The position numbers were made by a program, and so were the translations under genes. Positions 8,978 to 32,621 of a stretch of DNA of 32,621 bases are shown here, piece after piece. The DNA comes from an uncultured Prochlorococcus sp. (GTDB lineage Bacteria; Cyanobacteriota; Cyanobacteriia; PCC-6307; Cyanobiaceae): the NCBI GenBank assembly GCA_902536775.1, contig CACAYX010000013.1, forward strand, positions 1 to 32,621, written 5' to 3'. The notes beneath the pieces are model-generated. The model was not told where the DNA came from. It did not search any database and saw nothing but the letters and a program-made list of their open reading frames with translations. The first letter of the stretch is position 1. Each line of letters begins with the position of its first letter.

Positions 8978-10903
8978 ATGAGTGACATTCTTAATGCAAA
9001 TTTACCCTCTGAAAACATAGAAGGGGCTTGGGGCAAAACAGTCAAAGATCTCTCAAATCTATCAATTGAAAAGAAAAAGACATTTGAGATTATCATTGTA
9101 GGATGTGGCTTATCAGGCAGTTCAGCTGCTGCTACTCTAGCTGAAGAAGGGTTTAAAGTTAAACTTTTTACTTATCACGATAGTCCTAGAAGGGCTCACT
9201 CCGTTTCTGCTCAGGGAGGAATAAATGCAGCGAGAGCAGAATCAGAAGATAGAAAAAAAGAAGTTATAGATCAATTATTTGAAGACACAATCCGTGGTGG
9301 TGATTTCAGGGCCAGAGAAGCAAGTTGTCAGCGACTTGCAGAGTTAAGTAGCAACATAATTGATCAGTGTGTCTCACAAGGAGTTCCTTTTGCTAGAGAA
9401 TATGATGGGAATTTAGCTACAAGAAAGTTTGGTGGGGCTTTAGTAAGTAGAACTTTTTACGCTCGGGGTCAAACTGGACAACAGTTACTTTATGGAGCTT
9501 ACCAAGCCTTAATGCGACAGATTAACCTTGGAAATATTGAGTTATATACAAAAAGAGATATTCTTGATTTTGTAATTGTAAATAATATTGCGAGAGGAGT
9601 AATTGCAAGAAATTTAATTGGAGGAAATTTAGAGATTCATCAATCTCACTGCGTGGTTTTAGCAACTGGAGGATACAGTAATGTCTATTTTCTTTCTACA
9701 AATTCATTAAAATCAAATGCGACTGCAATTTGGAGAGCACATAAAAAAGGCGCTAATTTTGCAAATCCCTCTTTCACCCAAATACATCCAACATGCATAC
9801 CGCCAAAAGACAGTTATCAAAGCAAATTAACTTTAATGAGCGAAAGCCTGCGAAATGATGGCAGGATTTGGTTGCCAAAAAAACAGAATTCAAAAGAAAA
9901 TCCTGAGAACATTCCAGAGAATGAAAGAGATTATTTTCTTGAAAGACAATATCCTAAGTATGGGAATTTAGTCCCTAGAGATGTGGCTTCTAGAAGAGCG
10001 AAAGAATTATGTGATGACGGTTTTGGCATTGGATATGGATCTAAAGGAATATACCTTGACTTGAAAGACTCAATTAAAAAAAATGGATTAAAAGAAATAC
10101 AAGCTAAGTACGGTAATTTGTTTGAAATATATGAGCGAATCGTTGGTGAAGATCCTACAAAAGTACCTATGAAGATTTATCCAGCGCCACATTATACGAT
10201 GGGAGGTTTATGGGTTGATTATAATTTAATGAGCAACCTAGAAGGACTTTTTGTTTTAGGGGAAGCTAATTATTCTGTTCATGGAGCAAATCGACTTGGT
10301 GCAAACGCTTTACTACAATGCTTATCTGATGGATACTTTATCTCACCTAAAACAATAACCTCTTGGTTAGCTAATAATAATGATGTAGACAAAGTAAAAA
10401 TTAAGGAGGCTTGTAGGGAAGCTTTATATTTGGTTGAAAAAAAGATAAAATCATTACTTAGCAAAAAAGGTAACAAAACTGTCGACTATTTCCATAGAAA
10501 ACTTGGAGAAATAATGATATCAAAATGCGGTATTAGTAGAAATAGAAAAGATCTGAAATTAGCTCTTACGGAAATAGAGCGATTGAATAAAGATTTTCAA
10601 CTAAATGCAAATATTCCTGGATCTAATTCTGGTTTAAATTTAGAACTTGAAAAGGCTTTAAGACTAGAGGACTTTTTTGAACTATCAAATCTTATGATAA
10701 AAGATGCAATTGAAAGAGAAGAATCATGTGGAGCGCACTTTAGAGAAGAATATCAAACAAAAGAAGGAGAGGCAGCTAGAAATGATGATCTTTTCTCACA
10801 TATAGCTGTTTGGGAATATAATTTGAAAAAAAATACTCATATAAGGCATTCTGAAAAACTATCTTTTAAAAAAATAATTTTAAATACTAGAAACTATAAA
10901 TGA
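8978..10903 (+). CDS. sdhA: Succinate dehydrogenase/fumarate reductase flavoprotein subunit
   Basis: This is the catalytic FAD subunit that interconverts succinate and fumarate. The 641-residue protein has the dinucleotide motif GCGLSGSSAA near 42-51 and H74 in RRAHSVSAQGGI, the covalent FAD attachment site. It also has the substrate-site segments QIHPTCIPP and PRDVASRRAKE, the conserved APHYTMGGLWVD, HGANRLGANAL and a C-terminal EESCGAHFREE. Its length and the preceding single anchor gene fit the type B (Bacteroidetes/Chlorobi-like) group, whose members are somewhat longer than the 588-residue E. coli SdhA. The last four bases overlap the start of sdhB (ATGA), indicating translational coupling. 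All recognisable active-site residues are intact, so it is probably functional. Confidence 0.95.
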   Translation: MSDILNANLPSENIEGAWGKTVKDLSNLSIEKKKTFEIIIVGCGLSGSSAAATLAEEGFKVKLFTYHDSPRRAHSVSAQGGINAARAESEDRKKEVIDQLFEDTIRGGDFRAREASCQRLAELSSNIIDQCVSQGVPFAREYDGNLATRKFGGALVSRTFYARGQTGQQLLYGAYQALMRQINLGNIELYTKRDILDFVIVNNIARGVIARNLIGGNLEIHQSHCVVLATGGYSNVYFLSTNSLKSNATAIWRAHKKGANFANPSFTQIHPTCIPPKDSYQSKLTLMSESLRNDGRIWLPKKQNSKENPENIPENERDYFLERQYPKYGNLVPRDVASRRAKELCDDGFGIGYGSKGIYLDLKDSIKKNGLKEIQAKYGNLFEIYERIVGEDPTKVPMKIYPAPHYTMGGLWVDYNLMSNLEGLFVLGEANYSVHGANRLGANALLQCLSDGYFISPKTITSWLANNNDVDKVKIKEACREALYLVEKKIKSLLSKKGNKTVDYFHRKLGEIMISKCGISRNRKDLKLALTEIERLNKDFQLNANIPGSNSGLNLELEKALRLEDFFELSNLMIKDAIEREESCGAHFREEYQTKEGEAARNDDLFSHIAVWEYNLKKNTHIRHSEKLSFKKIILNTRNYK

Positions 10904-26082: not shown

Positions 26083-26201
26083 TTACATCACTAATAATTG
26101 TTCTATCTAAGTAGCCATTCCACTAATTTATTACATCATTTATGATTAAAATTGATTATTTAAAATTTATCTTTTCAAAAACAAATTAGTTAATTAATTT
26201 T

Positions 26202-27305
26202 ATGAATATTGTTTATGACCATCAAATATTTGCACTTTGGCAATATGGAGGAGTTTCAAGGTATTTTTTTGAAATCTCAAGAAATATTAATAAAAACATT
26301 AATTCGTCAACTAAGGTCGCAATAGTTGCTCCGGTTTATATTAATAAGCACTTAAGTAAAAAAGAACTGCTCATAAAAGGGAAAAGGGTGGGTTTTGGTA
26401 ATAAAGCTGGAAAAATTCTTTTTACCGCAAATAGACTTATAGCTCCGAGAATCATTTCAAAATTAAAACCTGATATTGTTCATAAAACTTATTACTACGA
26501 TCACTCTAGATTTTTAAAATCCAAAACAAAAAATGTCATAACAATACATGATATGACTAATGAAATTTTTCCTCATTATTCAAAAAATTCAAAAAACCAC
26601 ACAAGAAACAAAAAAAAAGCTGCAAGGGAGGCTGATCATATTTTTTGTGTTTCAGAAAATACTAAAAATGATTTAATGAGAATTTTTAATGTGAATTCTG
26701 AGAAAATAACTGTTATATATCATGGAGTTTTTCCAAATAAAAATCTTTTTCTTGAAAAAAAATCATCTTTTAAAAAGCCTTTCCTTTTATTTGTGGGGAA
26801 TAGATGTACTTATAGAAACTTTAGAAATCTACTATTTGTGTATGCATCAAATCCTGATTTAAATCAATATTTTAATTTAGTAGCTTTTGGTGGAGGAAAG
26901 TTTACAAAAGAAGAAAAAACTTTAATAAAAGAACTTAATCTTTCTCTTGAAAACGTTATTCATAAAACAGGCAATGATAATGATTTGTTTAATTTGTATA
27001 AAAAAGCATCTATGTTAGTTTACCCATCTTTGTATGAAGGCTTTGGCTTGCCTCCGCTAGAGGCAATGAAATATGGTTGTCCAGTTGCATGCAGTCATAC
27101 TTCATCTATTCCAGAAGTAGTGGGTGATGCAGCCTTGTTATTTGACCCCTTATCTCTAAAATCAATTTCAGATTGTATTCTAAAGATAATTTATGACAAA
27201 AAAGTAGCGAAAGATTTAACTTCTAAAGGACTCGAAAGAGCTAAAAAATTCAAATGGGATAAGGCTGCTAAAAAAACCTTAAATACATATAAAAAATTAA
27301 TTTAG
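26202..27305 (+). CDS. GT4-family glycosyltransferase
   Basis: This 367-residue GT-B enzyme starts MNIVYDHQIFALWQYGGVSR, where the GG loop is the glycine-rich acceptor site of GT4 enzymes. FCVSENTKNDLMRIF is the usual inter-domain helix, and the donor-site EGFGLPPLEAMKYGCPV begins at residue 279 with the paired glutamates E279 and E287. It probably adds a mannosyl, fucosyl or related nucleotide-linked sugar to the repeat unit. It lies 119 bases after the ABC exporter on the same strand, so it may be read from the same operon or its own promoter. There are no membrane helices. Specific donor unknown. Confidence 0.92.
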   Translation: MNIVYDHQIFALWQYGGVSRYFFEISRNINKNINSSTKVAIVAPVYINKHLSKKELLIKGKRVGFGNKAGKILFTANRLIAPRIISKLKPDIVHKTYYYDHSRFLKSKTKNVITIHDMTNEIFPHYSKNSKNHTRNKKKAAREADHIFCVSENTKNDLMRIFNVNSEKITVIYHGVFPNKNLFLEKKSSFKKPFLLFVGNRCTYRNFRNLLFVYASNPDLNQYFNLVAFGGGKFTKEEKTLIKELNLSLENVIHKTGNDNDLFNLYKKASMLVYPSLYEGFGLPPLEAMKYGCPVACSHTSSIPEVVGDAALLFDPLSLKSISDCILKIIYDKKVAKDLTSKGLERAKKFKWDKAAKKTLNTYKKLI

Positions 27306-27308
27306 ATA

Positions 27309-27324
27309 TCAATTTTTAAATTGA
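27309..27324 (+). terminator. AT hairpin after the glycosyltransferase gene
   Basis: TCAATTT-TT-AAATTGA forms a seven-base perfect stem four bases after the stop, followed by an A-run and T-run near 27331-27345. It may act as a terminator for the plus-strand export operon. The low GC content of the stem makes this tentative. Confidence 0.3.
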
Positions 27325-27440
27325 GCTATTAAAAAAATTTTTTTAAATAATTTTGAGTAATAAAAATAAATATTTCTAATAAGTTAGAGTTGACGTTCAT
27401 AAACTTTAAATTATTAAGGTTTCAATAAATATCAAGATAA

Positions 27441-28241
27441 TTATTTTTTTACATTAAGAAGGACATATTGATTATATGGATGCAATATTCTTATTTTATT
27501 AATATATCTTTCAACAAAATCACTTAGTTTCAAAAAGACATTTGATGGATAAGGCCTTAAAAATATAGAGGTCATAATTGCAACTGGAGCAGATAAAATT
27601 CCATAAAAAGTACTCTTGACATAAAAGTTTTTAGCCACCCATCTTAAATCTTTTTTCGTGAGAGGTTTTTCATCAGGAGTTCTTGCAAATGGAGTCAAAA
27701 AGCGCAAGATTTTTAAAAGTGGGTTAGCATCAAGAGGTTCCATGAAGAGTGCGCTTCCTCCTTTCTTCAATACTCTTTTTATTTCAAGCAAGCTCACCTT
27801 TAAATCAAGGTGGTGAATTATACCTCTACCTACTACCAAATCAAATGTTTCATCTAGGTAGTTCATGTCATGAACATCCATTTCTTCAAAGATACATTTT
27901 TCTGGTACGCCTTCTTCTTGAGATAATTTTTTCGAAGACTTTATGTATTTACTAGAAATATCAATGCCTGTAACTTGAGCACCATACTTTGCCAATAAAA
28001 CGCTTCTCTCGCCAAAGCCACAACCTACATCTAACACCTTTAATCCTTTACATCCTTTAAAAATTTTCATTTCATCATTTTCTAATCTTTTCATTGTTGG
28101 AGAATATAAGCAATGACAAAAGATGTTCTTAACTTTAAATGATTTTTCTAATATTGAGTTATCGTCGTGTTCTGATTTTTCCCTTTGAACTCTTCCTTCT
28201 ATTTCATTCATTTTTGTCTTTAATTTATCTTTAAAAAACAT
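27441..28241 (-). CDS. Class I SAM-dependent methyltransferase
   Basis: This 266-residue protein has the SAM-binding motif I LDVGCGFGERS (70-80), an acidic motif at GIDIS near 93-97 and the motif IV-like FDLVVGRGIIHHL. LKKGGSALFMEPLDANPL supplies the post-motif strand. The closest style is the UbiE/Methyltransf_11 group acting on small molecules or sugars. It converges on the GT4 gene and is the last enzyme before the tRNA-derived repeats. O-methylation of a sugar in the surface polymer is a reasonable guess from context, as is methylation of a lipid or phosphonate. No membrane segment is certain, though residues 190-220 are hydrophobic. Confidence 0.85.
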   Translation of the reverse strand: MFFKDKLKTKMNEIEGRVQREKSEHDDNSILEKSFKVKNIFCHCLYSPTMKRLENDEMKIFKGCKGLKVLDVGCGFGERSVLLAKYGAQVTGIDISSKYIKSSKKLSQEEGVPEKCIFEEMDVHDMNYLDETFDLVVGRGIIHHLDLKVSLLEIKRVLKKGGSALFMEPLDANPLLKILRFLTPFARTPDEKPLTKKDLRWVAKNFYVKSTFYGILSAPVAIMTSIFLRPYPSNVFLKLSDFVERYINKIRILHPYNQYVLLNVKK

Positions 28242-28389
28242 ACTATATCATCAAAAAAACTTTAATCAATTTAATAATTATATTTTGGGAATATAGATTA
28301 ATAAAAAGTTATTAAATTCTCAAAAAATTTTTGAAGAACTCTTTTGTTTAATTAAACATTCAAATTACTTTTAAAAAAACATTAACTAA
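28242..28389. other. Intergenic stretch before the first tRNA-derived repeat
   Basis: This AT-rich, non-coding stretch holds the promoter region of the methyltransferase gene. No conserved element or strong hairpin was seen up to the tRNA fragment at 28390. Confidence 0.3.
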
Positions 28390-28435
28390 TGGAGCCAAGG
28401 AGACTCAAACCCCTGACCCCCTGCATGCCATGCAG
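28390..28435 (-). tRNA. tRNA-Ala(GGC) 3' fragment, copy 1 (attachment-site remnant)
   Basis: Read on the minus strand this is the anticodon arm CTGCATGGCATGCAG (anticodon GGC), the variable loop, the T arm and the acceptor end GGCTCCA: 46 bases, roughly tRNA positions 28-73. The 5' half (acceptor strand, D arm) is absent and replaced by unrelated sequence, so it is not a functional tRNA gene. The T arm differs from copy 2 at four positions but the changes keep the stem pairable. A fragment beginning exactly at the anticodon arm is what integration by a tRNA-targeting tyrosine recombinase leaves behind. Confidence 0.85.
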
Positions 28436-28550
28436 TAGCCAAAAGCCTTGCAAATTTTGGCAATTACAGGTTTTATGACTGTTTTTTAATAAAGCCAAGT
28501 GCAGAAATAAGTGCAGTTTTGTCTAAGCAAAAATAAGTAAGAAGATCAAT
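28390..28550 (-). repeat. 161-base direct repeat, copy 1
   Basis: This repeat contains the tRNA-Ala fragment plus 115 bases of non-tRNA sequence. It aligns without gaps to 31320-31480, with 12 differences by my count (about 92% identity). The non-tRNA part holds a hairpin, GCCAAAA (28438-28444) with TTTTGGC (28455-28461), and the tail of a conserved reading frame. The distance between copies is 2930 bases. Confidence 0.9.
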
Positions 28551-28559
28551 AGCAATTAA
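28473..28559 (-). pseudogene. Conserved peptide tail next to the tRNA fragment, copy 1
   Basis: This open stretch has no start codon of its own and encodes a tail with IDLLTYFCLDKTALISALG and a lysine-rich end before TAA. Copy 2 encodes the same peptide with a few substitutions and the same stop. It is open upstream for only three more codons, so it looks like the C-terminus of a truncated gene carried by the repeat. The protein family is not recognised; a recombinase tail is possible but unproven. Confidence 0.4.
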
Positions 28560-28569
28560 TTAAAATAAA

Positions 28570-29250
28570 TTATTTTAACTTTAAACCTCTTACCTTTTTT
28601 ATATATGTGATTGCATTTCTAATGTATTCTGGATCATCTGTTTCATATAATTTAGGGAACTTTTTAATAATTTTTTTATCATATAATATTGAATCTTTTG
28701 AATCTGGTCCTAATAACATTTCTAAATTAAAAAGTTCTTCTTGAGCTTTTTTTAGATCTACAAGTGCATTGGCATTCTTTAAAGAATCAGAAGTCCATCC
28801 ACCAGATACAAATATTCGGTCTTTATCATAACAATGGAAGCTTTTCATAGACATAAGTATATGTTTTATACCATTCCAATCAATGTTTCGTTCATAAGTA
28901 TAAGATTCCCTAATCTCTCCTTTATTATTTTGTACTTGTTTAATTTCAAGTTTAGTGGATACCCCCCCTAAATAATCCAAAAATTCTTCAGCCGCCTTAA
29001 GTTTTAGTAATTCAATTTTTTCTGTTAGAAATTTATCATTATCCTTAGGTTCCCAAACAGTCACAAGAGATTTCCAAGAATCGGGACCAGTCACCATAAT
29101 CTGCGTACCAGGAGATGGAGCTCTACTACAAGCTGATTTTTCCTCAGCAAATAAAGATTGAGTATTTAATGGCATGCCCAAAAAAAATCCAATAGTTATT
29201 GGTATCTTGACTAGGCTTAAAAATTTAATTGGATATTTAAATGATTTCAA
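28570..29250 (-). CDS. Secreted protein of unknown function (gene A, intact copy)
   Basis: This 226-residue protein has a convincing signal peptide: basic start, hydrophobic core about 12-28 and likely cleavage after SLFA (residue 35). The mature part is charged, with TGPDSWKSL near 54, FLTEKIELLKLKAAEEF at 74-90, a DWNGIKHILMSMKSFHCY segment and TDDPEYIRNAITYIKKVRG at the end. Mature cysteines C41 and C140 could form a disulfide. The start is TTG; no in-frame ATG precedes the signal core. I do not recognise a family. A degraded paralogue in the same orientation lies at 31605-32293. Both follow the same tRNA-Ala repeat, so the gene travels as part of a repeated module. Confidence 0.8.
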   Translation of the reverse strand: MKSFKYPIKFLSLVKIPITIGFFLGMPLNTQSLFAEEKSACSRAPSPGTQIMVTGPDSWKSLVTVWEPKDNDKFLTEKIELLKLKAAEEFLDYLGGVSTKLEIKQVQNNKGEIRESYTYERNIDWNGIKHILMSMKSFHCYDKDRIFVSGGWTSDSLKNANALVDLKKAQEELFNLEMLLGPDSKDSILYDKKIIKKFPKLYETDDPEYIRNAITYIKKVRGLKLK

Positions 29251-29401
29251 AAATTAGGTGTGATATTTGATCTTTATATTACTAAAACATCTTTAAAAAT
29301 AATTCTCTATAAAAAATTATTAATTACACTTAAATTTTCTTTTGATTAATTTCTGGTGCTCTTCGGTCAATATATTGGATTAAACAATAATTAAATCTTA
29401 A

Positions 29402-29515
29402 TCAGGCATATCCTAAATTTATATATCTCAGAAAATCCTCCATACTATTGTCATAAACTACAGCTAACAAATCAGAATTTCCTTTCTTAAAATTCAGAAC
29501 GTTAGGAATTGTGAC
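29402..29515 (-). pseudogene. C-terminal stump of gene B, copy 1
   Basis: An open stretch of 37 codons ending in TGA encodes a tail with NSDLLAVVYDNSMEDFL. It aligns with the C-terminus of the gene entering the window at its right end (SDLLAIIYNHNLNDG, 32498-32621). A TAG closes the frame upstream at 29516-29518, and a divergent DUF1330 gene begins just beyond. Gene B has therefore lost everything but its 3' end here. Same order as in copy 2: tRNA fragment, gene A, gene B. Confidence 0.5.
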
Positions 29516-29543
29516 CTATTATGAAAAAAATTTCTTTTTAAAT

Positions 29544-29831
29544 ATGGCTAAAGGTTATTGGTTATCAACAGGTTCTATCAAAGACGGTCAAGGCATGCAG
29601 CCTTATTTAAAAGCGTTAAAAGATTGGTTACCTTCTGTTAATGGAGAATTTTTTGTTAGAGATTTGGCAACTATAGAGAAGGAAAGTACTCTTGGACATC
29701 TAACAGTAATTATTGAATTTCCATCAAAAGAAGATGCAGTTTCTGCATATGAATCAGAGGAATATCAAAAGATGATTCCTTTAAGAACTCCATATTCTGA
29801 TCTGACTCTTACTATTTTTGAGGGAATTTAA
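29544..29831 (+). CDS. DUF1330 family protein
   Basis: This small protein of about 95 residues matches the DUF1330 pattern: MAKGYWLSTGSIKDG at the start, GEFFVRD, LTVIIEFPSKEDAVSAYESE and a C-terminal TLTIFEGI. The family adopts a dimeric alpha/beta ferredoxin-like fold; its function is undefined. I place the start at ATG 29544 because family members begin MAKGYW; a GTG at 29511 would add eleven residues and overlap the gene B stump. It lies in the segment between the two tRNA-derived repeats. No signal peptide. Confidence 0.85.
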   Translation: MAKGYWLSTGSIKDGQGMQPYLKALKDWLPSVNGEFFVRDLATIEKESTLGHLTVIIEFPSKEDAVSAYESEEYQKMIPLRTPYSDLTLTIFEGI

Positions 29832-29869
29832 GTTATTTTTAAGCGGTGCAAGTAGTAAGCAATTGATAA

Positions 29870-30136
29870 TTAGAAATCAACAATTCTTTGGCAGTAAGCA
29901 TCAACAAGTTCTACTGGTACTTTAACTTTCTCTGCAGTAATTATCTCATTGCTTTCAGCTTGCTCATCAGTTCCATAAGAATAAAAAGCAAAGTATCTTG
30001 CACATACTTCTCTGAAGTAGGCCAGTTTTGCATTTTCTTTTAGACTTCCTGCTATAGAAAACAAATTAATAGCAATTATCGCCAATATTATTGTTATTGG
30101 GTACTTTTTAAAAAAATTTAAAATTTTGTTTTTCAT
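29870..30136 (-). CDS. Small membrane-anchored protein of unknown function
   Basis: An 88-residue protein, MKNKILNFFKKYPITIIL at the N-terminus, has one membrane helix (about 13-32) followed by a soluble segment with YFREVCARYFAFYSYGTDE and a final VDAYCQRIVDF containing two cysteines overall. The ATG at 30136 follows the upstream TAA by three bases, so it is translationally coupled to the neighbouring small gene. The family is not recognised; this style of short protein is common in marine picocyanobacteria. Confidence 0.6.
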   Translation of the reverse strand: MKNKILNFFKKYPITIILAIIAINLFSIAGSLKENAKLAYFREVCARYFAFYSYGTDEQAESNEIITAEKVKVPVELVDAYCQRIVDF

Positions 30137-30139
30137 CAA

Positions 30140-30331
30140 TTATGAAGCGGGCTTAAATTCTTGAGGTTTTTTGAACCATTCTGGTTTGTCTACCCATTTA
30201 TCTTTATTTTTATTATTTACAGTACTCAGTACAAATTTTGATAAATAGTTAAAACTAGTTCCTATTAAAGTTCTTGTTTTAGGACTAATTGATATAAATC
30301 CAAGCAATAGGATTATTGAAATTAGTTTCAA
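30140..30331 (-). CDS. Small membrane protein of unknown function
   Basis: This protein of about 63 residues has an N-terminal membrane helix (KLISIILLLGFISI) and a polar C-terminus ending KWVDKPEWFKKPQEFKPAS. The TTG at 30331 is the first usable start; the frame runs a few codons further up, through a possible ATT, before a TAG. It is paired with the downstream 88-residue gene, with its TAA three bases before that ATG. Function unknown. The proline and tryptophan-rich end looks conserved rather than random, supporting a real gene. Confidence 0.55.
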   Translation of the reverse strand: MKLISIILLLGFISISPKTRTLIGTSFNYLSKFVLSTVNNKNKDKWVDKPEWFKKPQEFKPAS

Positions 30332-30465
30332 AAAAGATTTAATGAAAAATAGCTAATTTCCCTTATTTTAGATCGACTTTCAATTACTAACTATTAGCGT
30401 TGCAAGTAGTAATCGTTTCAATTATTAATTTTGTCTTATTATTAATAAATTAGTAAATTAATTTG

Positions 30466-31188
30466 ATGGCAGTAAGAAATTTAGAAATTAATTCAAAAGA
30501 TTTTTTAAAATTTAACTTTTTAACTATTATTTCACTTATTATTTTGCATATTATATTTCAAATATGCAATTATTTTTTCAATAATATCACCTACTTTCCT
30601 GATAAACAAATTTACCATCTTTTTAACCTTGATGCAGAGAGAAATATAGCAACGGCTTATGCTGCTACTATGATTTTTGTTTCTTCATTAATCTTATATA
30701 TTAGTGGTTTTCTTGAAGAATTAAAAAAGAATAAATTTTATTATAATTTTTTATCTGGAATTTTCTTTTTTATTGGTTGGGACGAACTATTTAGTATTCA
30801 TGAGTCAATTTTACTTTTCTTACAAAACGAATACAAATTCTCTGGTTTCCTTTATCACGCGTGGGTAATCCCTTATGGAGCTCTAACATTTTTCGTTGCT
30901 GTATTCTTTTATCGTTTTGTTTATAAATTTCCTCGTAAAATAAAGAATCTCATCTTTTTCTCGGGTTTTATATTTGTTTTAGGAGAATTAATCTTTGAGA
31001 CATTTAGTGGGAAATTAGTTTCTTTATATGGAGATCCATCTTTAATGACTAAACCTCAGTTTCTTTTACATTTCTCTTTCATAACTATTGAAGAATCTTT
31101 AGGGTTGATAGGTATACTAATTTTTAATTTTGCATTATTAAAAAACCTCCAAATTAAATTTGGGAAAATAAAAATTCAAACATCCTAA
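30466..31188 (+). CDS. Multi-pass membrane protein of unknown function
   Basis: This 240-residue protein starts at ATG 30466 (a TTG directly precedes it). About six membrane segments are visible, near 15-38, 60-83, 90-108, 124-146, 155-175 and 200-225. Polar residues sit within helices: GWDELFSIHES near 102-112, FLYHAWVIPYG, LGELIFETFSG and ITIEESLGLIG. Acidic residues and histidines inside membrane helices occur in a group of uncharacterised bacterial membrane proteins with a DE-x-SIHE motif, suggesting metal binding or an enzymatic site. It is the last gene before the second tRNA-derived repeat. No function can be assigned. Confidence 0.7.
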   Translation: MAVRNLEINSKDFLKFNFLTIISLIILHIIFQICNYFFNNITYFPDKQIYHLFNLDAERNIATAYAATMIFVSSLILYISGFLEELKKNKFYYNFLSGIFFFIGWDELFSIHESILLFLQNEYKFSGFLYHAWVIPYGALTFFVAVFFYRFVYKFPRKIKNLIFFSGFIFVLGELIFETFSGKLVSLYGDPSLMTKPQFLLHFSFITIEESLGLIGILIFNFALLKNLQIKFGKIKIQTS

Positions 31189-31319
31189 ACAAGTATAAAT
31201 TTCTTCAGTCATTATTTTTTCAGCTAAAAATCTTCTATCCATTAACAGATACCCAGCCTGTCTTTTTTGTCTTTACGAAATTGTCCTCGAAAACAATGGG
31301 TATCACTAGAAAAAATAAA
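31189..31319. other. Spacer before the second tRNA-derived repeat
   Basis: These 131 bases hold no supported gene. Two short minus-strand open stretches exist (a 34-codon ATG ORF at 31143-31247 and a tail ending in GDTHCFRG-like sequence), neither convincing. In tRNA terms this is the DNA immediately 3' of the acceptor end of copy 2. Confidence 0.3.
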
Positions 31320-31365
31320 TGGAGCCAAGCGGACTCGAACCGCTGACCCCCTGCATGCCATGCAG
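31320..31365 (-). tRNA. tRNA-Ala(GGC) 3' fragment, copy 2 (attachment-site remnant)
   Basis: On the minus strand this is a 46-base tRNA-Ala 3' part: anticodon arm CTGCATGGCATGCAG, then AGCGGTTCGAGTCCGCT with a canonical TTCGAGT T loop and a perfect stem, then the acceptor end GGCTCCA. Upstream of the anticodon arm the D arm and 5' acceptor strand are missing. The well-preserved T arm suggests this copy is closer to the real tRNA gene than copy 1. Confidence 0.87.
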
Positions 31366-31480
31366 TAGCTAAAAGCCTTGCAAATATTGGCAATTATAGG
31401 TTTTATGACTTTTTTTTAATAACGCCAAGTGTAGAAATAAGTGCTGTTTTGTCTAAGCGAAAATAAGTAAGAAGATCAAT
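31320..31480 (-). repeat. 161-base direct repeat, copy 2
   Basis: This is the same length and orientation as 28390-28550, with no gaps in the alignment. Identity continues about 115 bases beyond the tRNA part and stops abruptly after GATCAAT. The hairpin found in copy 1 is weakened here (GCTAAAA against TATTGGC). Confidence 0.9.
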
Positions 31481-31486
31481 AATCAT
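31403..31486 (-). other. Conserved peptide ORF next to the tRNA fragment, copy 2
   Basis: The peptide is MIIDLLTYFRLDKTALISTL followed by GVIKKKS, 27 residues from an ATG at 31486 to a TAA. It ends 37 bases before the tRNA-like anticodon arm and reads towards it. Copy 1 has the same tail without an ATG. It may be the surviving C-terminus of a gene once adjacent to the attachment site, or a true small protein. Confidence 0.4.
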
Positions 31487-31604
31487 TTCTAACTTTTACC
31501 TAAAAATACAATTTGAGATCTCACTTCTTAAAAACTTCAATAGGTTTTGCTCAATTCAACGAGCCAAATACTAATATCAATTAATCAAAAATCAATAATT
31601 TGAA

Positions 31605-32293
31605 TTATAAATTTCTCATCCTTTTAACGTATTTAATTGCATTCCTAACATATTCCGGATCATCCGTTTCCTCTAAATTAGGAAACTTTTTTTTAAATTT
31701 TTCATCATCGAATATTGAGCCTTCTCCTAATGAAATAGATATATTAATTAATTCGTTCCAAGCCTTTTCAAGATTTTATATTCCTGTTTATATGTCTATA
31801 GGCTTTCTGCACAGAATCAGAAGTCCATACCCCAGTTAAGATAATTCGCTTGTCATCATAACAATAAAAGCTCTTCATAGATATAAGTATTGGGTTTCAT
31901 ATCATTCCAATGAAAGACACGAGTAAAATATTCTAAATCGTCCATATTTTGATCTTCTTTAATCATCTCTTGTATAAATTTTTTAAATTTGTCTCTTTTG
32001 GTTAATTCCTGCGTCATAAAGTAACTAAATTCTTCAGCAGCCTTAAGTTCTAGCAATCCAATTTCTGTAAGAAATTTATCATCACCCTTATATTTTAAAA
32101 GAGTTCTAGAAAATCTCCATGAACTAGGACCAGTCACAATAAATTGCGCACCAATATTCGGAGCTCTACTACAATCTGATTTTTTCTCAGCAAATAAAGA
32201 TTAAATATTTAATGGCAAACCTAGAGATAATCCAATCATTATTGATATCTTGATTAGGCTAAAAGATTTAATTGAAGTTCTATTGAATTTCAA
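31605..32293 (-). pseudogene. Degraded paralogue of gene A
   Basis: Read from a TTG at 32293, the N-terminus matches the signal peptide of the intact copy (FSLIKISIMIGLSLGLPLN) but then meets a TAA where the intact copy has CAA (Gln). After the stop the match continues with SLFAEKKSDCSRAP, VTGPSSW, KFLTEIGLLELKAAEEF and FHWNDMK. A frameshift near 31897 ends that frame at 31856. The rest resumes in another frame (YCYDDKRIILTGVWTSDS), shifts again, and finishes with FPNLEETDDPEYVRNAIKYV before a stop at 31605. One nonsense mutation and at least two frameshifts make it clearly non-functional. Position after the tRNA-Ala repeat is the same as for the intact gene. Confidence 0.85.
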
Positions 32294-32497
32294 AACTATA
32301 AAGTGATTTTCAATATTAATATTAATAAAATAACTCCAGTAGGACTATATATAAAATCTCTACCTCACACTTAATTTTCCTTTAATTTTCTCATGCTTTG
32401 GGAGCAAAAATAAAAGTAAGATAGTAATTTATTTAAAAAGTATTGATCTTGTCAAACCTAGCTCTCTTTCAATGCTTAGGAAGTTTACGACTTCTAT
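32294..32497. other. Spacer between gene A pseudogene and gene B
   Basis: This AT-rich spacer corresponds to 29251-29401 in copy 1. The two share patches such as CACTTAA-TTTTC-TTT. It presumably once held the gene A promoter. No gene seen. Confidence 0.3.
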
Positions 32498-32621
32498 TCA
32501 AAAAATAAAATCAGATATTGATCCATCGTTCAAGTTATGGTTATAAATTATTGCCAGTAAATCACTTTTCTCTTGATCTATATAAACTTTTAGATTTTTG
32601 CCGCTATCAAAAGCTCCAAGT
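32498..32621 (-). CDS. Gene B, C-terminal part (cut by window edge)
   Basis: The frame is open from the right edge to a TGA at 32498-32500, encoding LGAFDSGKNLKVYIDQEKSD and then LLAIIYNHNLNDGSISDFIF, about 40 residues. The SDLLAIIYN part aligns with the stump at 29402-29515. The family is not recognised from the tail alone. It could be intact outside the window. Confidence 0.5.
   Translation of the reverse strand, partial: LGAFDSGKNLKVYIDQEKSDLLAIIYNHNLNDGSISDFIF

Follow-up and report, generated by a model that had tools for sequence, protein, structure and literature searches.

Decayed elements of the tycheposon type, probably stacked at tRNA-Ala(GGC) in an uncultured Prochlorococcus, and the anatomy of their attachment arms

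Prochlorococcus is a very abundant phototroph of the ocean, and its genomes are reshaped by tRNA-targeting elements known as tycheposons, whose cargo, such as genes for nutrient uptake, is swappable. The paper by Hackl et al. (Cell, 2023) is said to be the defining one. As described in PMC10872708, tycheposons have tRNA borders and a tyrosine recombinase, span 4 to 200 kb and use seven target tRNAs; they appear among the proposed satellite families listed in PMC11389934. The locus considered here lies on contig C13 (32,621 nt, referred to in full as the window) of a 1.16-Mb genome of an uncultured Prochlorococcus sp. that is 71% complete and consists of 49 contigs; C, G and L numbers denote contigs of this genome, genomes and loci, respectively. 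The window carries a pair of direct repeats that the original prediction ascribed to the tandem ends of two related tRNA-anchored elements. With a probability of roughly 0.85, these repeats represent the distal (attR-side) ends of a pair of related, decayed, tycheposon-type elements (elements 1 and 2, Table 1) that were stacked by successive insertion at tRNA-Ala(GGC). Elements of this type are already known, and the anatomy of their attachment arms is the useful addition.

The likeness to the tycheposons, as far as these are covered in the sources cited, includes the Prochlorococcus host, a tRNA gene as the target, swappable cargo and a tyrosine recombinase beside the tRNA in complete relatives. 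The expected ends, a tRNA gene and a partial tRNA repeat, are represented by tRNA halves at 28390 and 31320 and an intact tRNA on contig C25, the join between the contigs being unseen. Cargo at one site varies among strains (L018, L020 and L125, and by eye L021). On the other hand, element 1 has neither the recombinase nor the helix-turn-helix (HTH) gene of its relatives; a tyrosine recombinase beside the tRNA is absent from the window and present in relatives with the same ends. Element 1 is also, at 2.93 kb, shorter than the 4 to 200 kb given in PMC10872708, within which the complete relatives (6.8 to 13.1 kb) fall. Since two of the tested tycheposon features, recombinase and length, are thus lacking, the window elements are tycheposon-derived remnants. 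The Dehalococcoides ssrA islands, as presented in PMC3146451, are similarly stacked in large numbers 3' of a single RNA gene, with a repeat of that gene's 3' end closing each island, and 15 islands have no integration module, with movement by accretion having been proposed; they differ in their tmRNA target, serine recombinase and T-loop crossover. The picocyanobacterial tRNA-Phe/tRNA-Cys integrase elements share with the present ones the hosts, the tRNA-linked islands and a divergent tyrosine integrase, but use other tRNAs, and their integrase is described as distinct from those of tycheposons (PMC10187409). Phage satellites of the PICI and VEIME types, named in PMC11389934, are likewise small integrative elements; no terminase small subunit or other hijack gene typical of phage satellites was found in the window. 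A search of the literature on Prochlorococcus attachment sites, partial tRNAs and T-stem changes at islands, which did not extend to the defining tycheposon paper, returned no title or abstract on the arm motif presented below.

In the repeat search of the window, the direct repeats (28388-28551 and 31318-31481) are 164 nt long, 93% identical, gap-free and spaced 2930 nt apart; direct sequence search aligned 28390-28551 with 31320-31481 (162 nt, 93%, E 2e-64). Each repeat consists of the 46-nt 3' end of tRNA-Ala(GGC), from the anticodon arm to CCA on the minus strand, followed by 116 nt. The 46-nt boundary is correct because most same-genus tRNA-Ala matches without the rest of the segment stop at query position 45 or 46. 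The repeat pair and its tRNA portion are therefore as originally predicted, and only the extent of 161 bases needs revision: similarity continues between 28548-29347 and 31573-32387 (69% DNA identity), so the duplication covers approximately 1 kb in all and includes the open reading frame (ORF) at 28570-29250(-) and its broken copy. A tRNA scan detected no complete tRNA in the window; the genome has its intact tRNA-Ala(GGC) at C25:11928-12002. An Rfam scan of 27000-32621 gave three matches only, all below threshold; one of them, a weak match to tmRNA overlapping half B (E 0.025, 19.6 bits versus the cut-off of 70), was rejected as an RNA gene.

A 120-nt arm query matched 10 of the 149 genomes searched, the window's own included, two of them with weak 35- to 37-nt matches (G088 and a genome of another family). 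In seven of the eight other same-genus matches (G025, G034, G038, G064, G074, G080 and G084), the segment adjoins a tRNA-Ala half, and its neighbors vary among the relatives, a distribution unlike that of a segment fixed away from tRNA genes with unvarying cargo. In complete elements, the order is the intact tRNA-Ala, an integrase-side (P) arm, a divergent tyrosine recombinase, cargo, a gene for a 113-aa HTH protein, the 116-nt segment and a tRNA 3' half. Such elements were found in L115 (strain AG-412-J13, 7.9 kb), L222 (6.8 kb) and L223 (AG-686-J21, 13.1 kb), and the same frame with a broken integrase in L018 (AH-321-P05, 8.7 kb). In L115, for example, the intact tRNA-Ala is followed by the integrase (a frame of 441 codons), an ORF weakly matching an excisionase, an AAA ATPase and a frame of 1124 codons; the HTH gene, the arm and the tRNA half complete the element. 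The cargo of L018 (a TonB receptor, ExbD and a binding protein) probably serves siderophore uptake, that of L020 includes Hsp70, and L021 carries genes that by eye resemble polysaccharide-related ones. An element arranged in this way lies at tRNA-Gly in L131, where it has phosphonate-type uptake genes, and another at tRNA-Thr in L129. Because complete relatives end in this very segment plus a tRNA 3' half, the 116 nt are read, from sequence comparison, as the element's own distal attachment (P') arm; the original prediction was right that this flank is repeated in both copies, and its description as foreign does not stand. The relatives, with a tyrosine recombinase, the same tRNA and the same ends, also bear out the suggested link of this segment to recombinase genes and the assignment to the Prochlorococcus tycheposon type.

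The arm segment contains a double motif, (A/T)(A/G)GTGC(A/G), with the two copies 12 bp apart. After removal of the duplicates L083, L086, L101, L107 and L132 (also left out of the T-arm counts and the listing of halves), and of loci without a recognized half or with a half more than 600 nt from the gene (such as L085), 46 loci with an HTH gene and a recognized tRNA half remained (9 Ala, 3 Gly and 34 Thr, related rather than independent), and the double motif is present in 42 of these, in the strict form in 37 and in a relaxed form in 5. Its distance to the tRNA half is nearly constant, 61 nt in all 9 Ala loci, 69 to 71 nt in the 3 Gly loci and 70 nt in 30 Thr loci (mean 68.1, sd 3.7), whereas its distance to the gene ranges from 24 to 257 nt (mean 158, sd 97). 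Because the spacing is fixed to the half and variable to the gene, the segment was rejected both as a promoter of the neighboring gene and as foreign cargo. The strict motif occurs no more than 400 nt upstream of the HTH gene start in 43 of 56 cases; away from these features, it had a single match in 2.31 million strand-bases. In the window, where 0.01 matches are expected, an intact double motif lies at 28497 and one with two mismatches at 31427. On the integrase side, 9 of 12 tRNA-Ala arms of relatives have a variant motif pair (GTGCATTTTAGGGTGC or GAGCATTTTAGAGAGC, for example) in an alignment inspected by eye, and the variants of the P and P' arms, as read from the alignment, agree in L018, L020, L222 and L223. 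As a separate observation, a double motif AGGTGCATTTTAA(G/A)GTGCA lies ∼95 nt 5' of the intact tRNA-Ala in the genome's own contig C25 (L023:11814) and in L021:7148 and L136:15018.

The stretch 28390-31319 is regarded as one element with both ends because it has a P' arm and a half at 28390 and a P-arm remnant abutting half B. The remnant (31264-31318) matches the P arm beside the intact tRNA-Ala of L018 with 84% identity over 55 nt (E 2.4e-10 in 1.4 Mb); the arm alignment indicates that the inner part of this P arm and its motif are gone. No P-arm match was obtained in the 120 nt to the left of half A (left of 28390), which borders other DNA, not an arm. Element 2 starts past 31320, shows its P' end alone and runs off the contig at 32621. 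Thus the P arm between the copies and the recognition of both ends of element 1 uphold the prediction of tandem ends of two related tRNA-anchored elements. No recombinase is encoded on the window contig, as had been noted, the PF00589 matches of this genome being confined to C2 and C5; a search of the window with element-type integrases at E 1e-3 was negative, and no relative of the tRNA-Ala element integrase was found in the 71%-complete genome at E 1e-10. The 113-aa HTH protein has no match in this genome, nor is its gene present beside the P' arms of the window. The four element 1 proteins scanned yielded no PHROG match, and gene A had no match in Pfam, PHROG or NCBIfam. Relatives of gene A were detected in 6 of 264 other genomes of the genus, with no tRNA-Ala half in their fetched flanks (up to 1.5 kb), and for the 241-aa ORF a single distant relative (30%) was found in 150 other genomes of the genus.

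Table 1. Features of the two tRNA-Ala(GGC)-linked elements in the window
Feature	Position	Strand	Description
Element 1	28390..31319		2.93-kb decayed integrative element between two tRNA-Ala 3' halves; both ends recognized
tRNA-Ala(GGC) 3' half A	28390..28435	-	extends from the anticodon arm to CCA; changed T arm retains pairing, with one G-U
Distal attachment (P') arm A	28436..28551		double motif intact at 28497-28516; adjoins tRNA-Ala halves in 7 other same-genus genomes
Cargo gene A	28570..29250	-	226 aa; start resembles a signal peptide (by eye)
Cargo, DUF1330 protein	29511..29831	+	PF07045, E 1e-19
Cargo ORF	29870..30139	-	89 aa; no Pfam or PHROG family matched
Cargo ORF	30463..31188	+	241 aa; no Pfam, PHROG or NCBIfam family matched
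Integrase-side (P) arm remnant, element 1	31264..31319		adjoins half B; arm motif missing
tRNA-Ala(GGC) 3' half B	31320..31365	-	all 46 nt shared with tRNA 3' ends in many relatives
P' arm B of element 2	31366..31481		double motif degenerate, 31427-31446, 2 mismatches
Element 2, decayed gene A region (gene A')	31573..32387	-	gene A' in three pieces with stops

A mechanism consistent with this anatomy would start from a complete element with the tRNA 3' part (anticodon arm to CCA), P arm, divergent tyrosine recombinase, cargo, 113-aa HTH gene and P' arm, in whose circular form the P' arm would join the tRNA half. The integrase would bind the repeated arm motif and cross over within the anticodon-arm-to-acceptor block; the host's tRNA would be restored by the incoming 3' half, and the original half would end up at the opposite end of the inserted DNA. 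If the restored tRNA were used as a target again, the newcomer would come to lie ahead of the first element, in the order tRNA, element 2, half B, element 1, half A, host island. In the window, both elements have decayed, with no integrase seen, no HTH gene by the P' arms, a partly missing P arm in element 1 and a broken gene A' in element 2; present immobility appears probable.

If insertion replaces the 3' half, T arms are expected to differ. In the window's genome, all three differ: the intact tRNA has AGGGG..CCCCT, half B AGCGG..CCGCT and half A AGGGG..CTCCT. The intact tRNA and a displaced half also differ in T-arm type in L020, L085, L115, L161, L222 and L223, and the T-arm types of intact genes preserve stem pairing via paired changes (C-G to G-C, A-T to T-A). 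A hand split of 26 intact tRNA-Ala copies, with a changed T stem in 7 of the 11 that precede an element arm versus 0 of the 15 others (Fisher 5e-4), was not used as evidence; the loci are related and non-random, and L158 could fit either group.

Relatives of the tRNA-Ala element integrase (E up to 1e-10) are encoded in 78 of 265 genus genomes. A tRNA scan of 20 of these loci found tRNA-Ala(GGC) at 14, tRNA-Gly at 3 and no tRNA at 3. Among the 15 scanned loci with integrases at least 47% identical (further matches were left unscanned), 13 have tRNA-Ala(GGC) and 2 no tRNA; integrases at 27 to 29% identity have tRNA-Gly in 3 of 4 scanned loci. By position and strand, 7 of the 13 close cases (L192-L195, L201, L202 and L212) have the integrase 3' of the tRNA, the arrangement found in the element. 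Tycheposon recombinases are reportedly deep-branching, with which the below-cut-off PF00589 matches of the two relatives' integrases scanned agree.

Several observations weigh against successive insertion as set out above. The contig stops at 32621, which leaves element 2 partial and its join to the intact tRNA on C25 unseen. No empty site was found in 151 genus genomes, two candidates being scored per genome, and the flank at 26100-28380 has only short matches (∼100 nt at most). The pattern search for the integrase-side motif was positive at only 3 of 13 sites (L131 at 95 nt and L129 at 106 nt from the tRNA, and a relaxed form in L110), and the P and P' variants, again read from the alignment, disagree in L115, L021 and the split genomes G038 and G074. 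Exchange of T arms is not general, the displaced halves at 9 of 13 loci being equal to the intact T arm or differing by 1 or 2 bases. In the remaining 6 of the 13 close cases (L196-L200 and L204), the integrase lies on the 5' side of the tRNA, and the L209 integrase (31%) is also at tRNA-Ala. Together with L115:10934-12208, these 5'-side integrases are ∼47-57% identical and read away from tRNA-Ala(GGC); they could perhaps represent a second element class or a resident integrase.

A further such point is that arms A and B are weak sisters in the tree (84/83), arm A being the nearest to B, and gene A adjoins the arm in both copies, which would also follow from a single insertion and subsequent tandem duplication by homologous recombination between the flanking tRNA repeats, with the copies diverging in place. 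That scenario nonetheless appears unlikely. Gene A and gene A' are only 69-70% identical in DNA, and gene A is not clearly nearer to A' than to the gene of another genome, being about equally close to both (60% amino acid identity to the G073 gene versus 46-63% to A' in its three pieces), although the broken A' may have changed faster. Three different T arms, those of the intact tRNA and of halves A and B, are not predicted by duplication alone, and the stacked halves in L085 and L154 have different start sequences after them. Successive insertion of two related elements is therefore favored over tandem duplication.

The original prediction left a choice between satellites and decayed elements. 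Continued mobility of the two as non-autonomous units, moved by the integrase of another element in the same cell, would suit the intact motif in P' arm A and the existence of L020 and L021, which have both arms and other cargo with no integrase match. Its probability is nevertheless low, given that element 1 has lost the inner P arm with its motif, that the motif of arm B is degenerate, and that no relative of the tRNA-Ala integrase was found in the 71%-complete genome; the decayed state fits better than an active satellite. A chimera from assembly or single-cell amplification, suggested by the end of the contig inside element 2 and the 49 contigs of the genome, is hardly credible, as the divergence between the copies is 7% for the repeat and ∼30% for the gene, a P arm lies between them, and stacked halves exist in other assemblies, that of the isolate MIT 9201 (L085) included.

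The window is a decayed example, not a new system, and its value lies in a concrete attachment-site anatomy for the elements concerned. In fragmentary single-cell genomes, the arm motif can serve to locate the ends of elements, even of remnants that have no integrase. The T arms of displaced halves may help to order insertions. At least two tRNA halves are present in MIT 9201 (L085, two), L154 (three) and L156 (three), and in L110 and L125 a tRNA half is directly followed by a P arm. As a tentative and rather speculative extension, tRNA-Ala(GGC) and its sister sites might act as slow cassette platforms: an attachment code shared by Ala, Gly and Thr elements (the double motif, its 12-bp spacing and its position 61-71 nt from the tRNA block) would let one integrase family load successive cassettes, integrase-free ones included, the load could rewrite the T arm while conserving pairing, and the stack of halves would record the order of arrival.

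Some further observations concern the relatives. The 113-aa HTH protein is presumably similar in general build to small terminase subunits, but terminase identity could not be shown and was not adopted: no Pfam family scored over the cut-off, no PDB fold match was significant, and the best viral fold matches carry no terminase name. IMG/VR scans with the HTH gene, the integrase and the arm gave no match, and neither did the HTH protein among phage records. In L084:6239-14291 (AG-355-N18), the HTH gene is accompanied by primase- and helicase-like proteins, a 427-codon integrase frame and another small protein with 20% identity to the HTH protein, a set that looks like a satellite. The contig L125:1-11294 (HOT208_60m_813B04) has a tRNA-Ala half with arms on both sides, the HTH gene, ArsR, an MFS transporter and a phosphate-type binding protein; its ends do not overlap, so it was rejected as an excised circle. 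By eye, at least three other classes of start sequences follow tRNA-Ala(GGC) or its halves, and several element families seem to use this site. In the window's own genome, an open frame of at least 2318 codons starts ∼13 nt past the intact tRNA-Ala on C25 and runs off the contig (L023:12015-18968); by eye, it has glycine-rich RTX-like repeats and is possibly cargo of element 2. The left part of the window (1-28241) is a surface-polysaccharide island with GDP-mannose enzymes, a Wzc-like kinase, an export protein and a lipopolysaccharide-type ABC transporter, inside which a fumarate reductase-type flavoprotein is encoded at 8978-10903.

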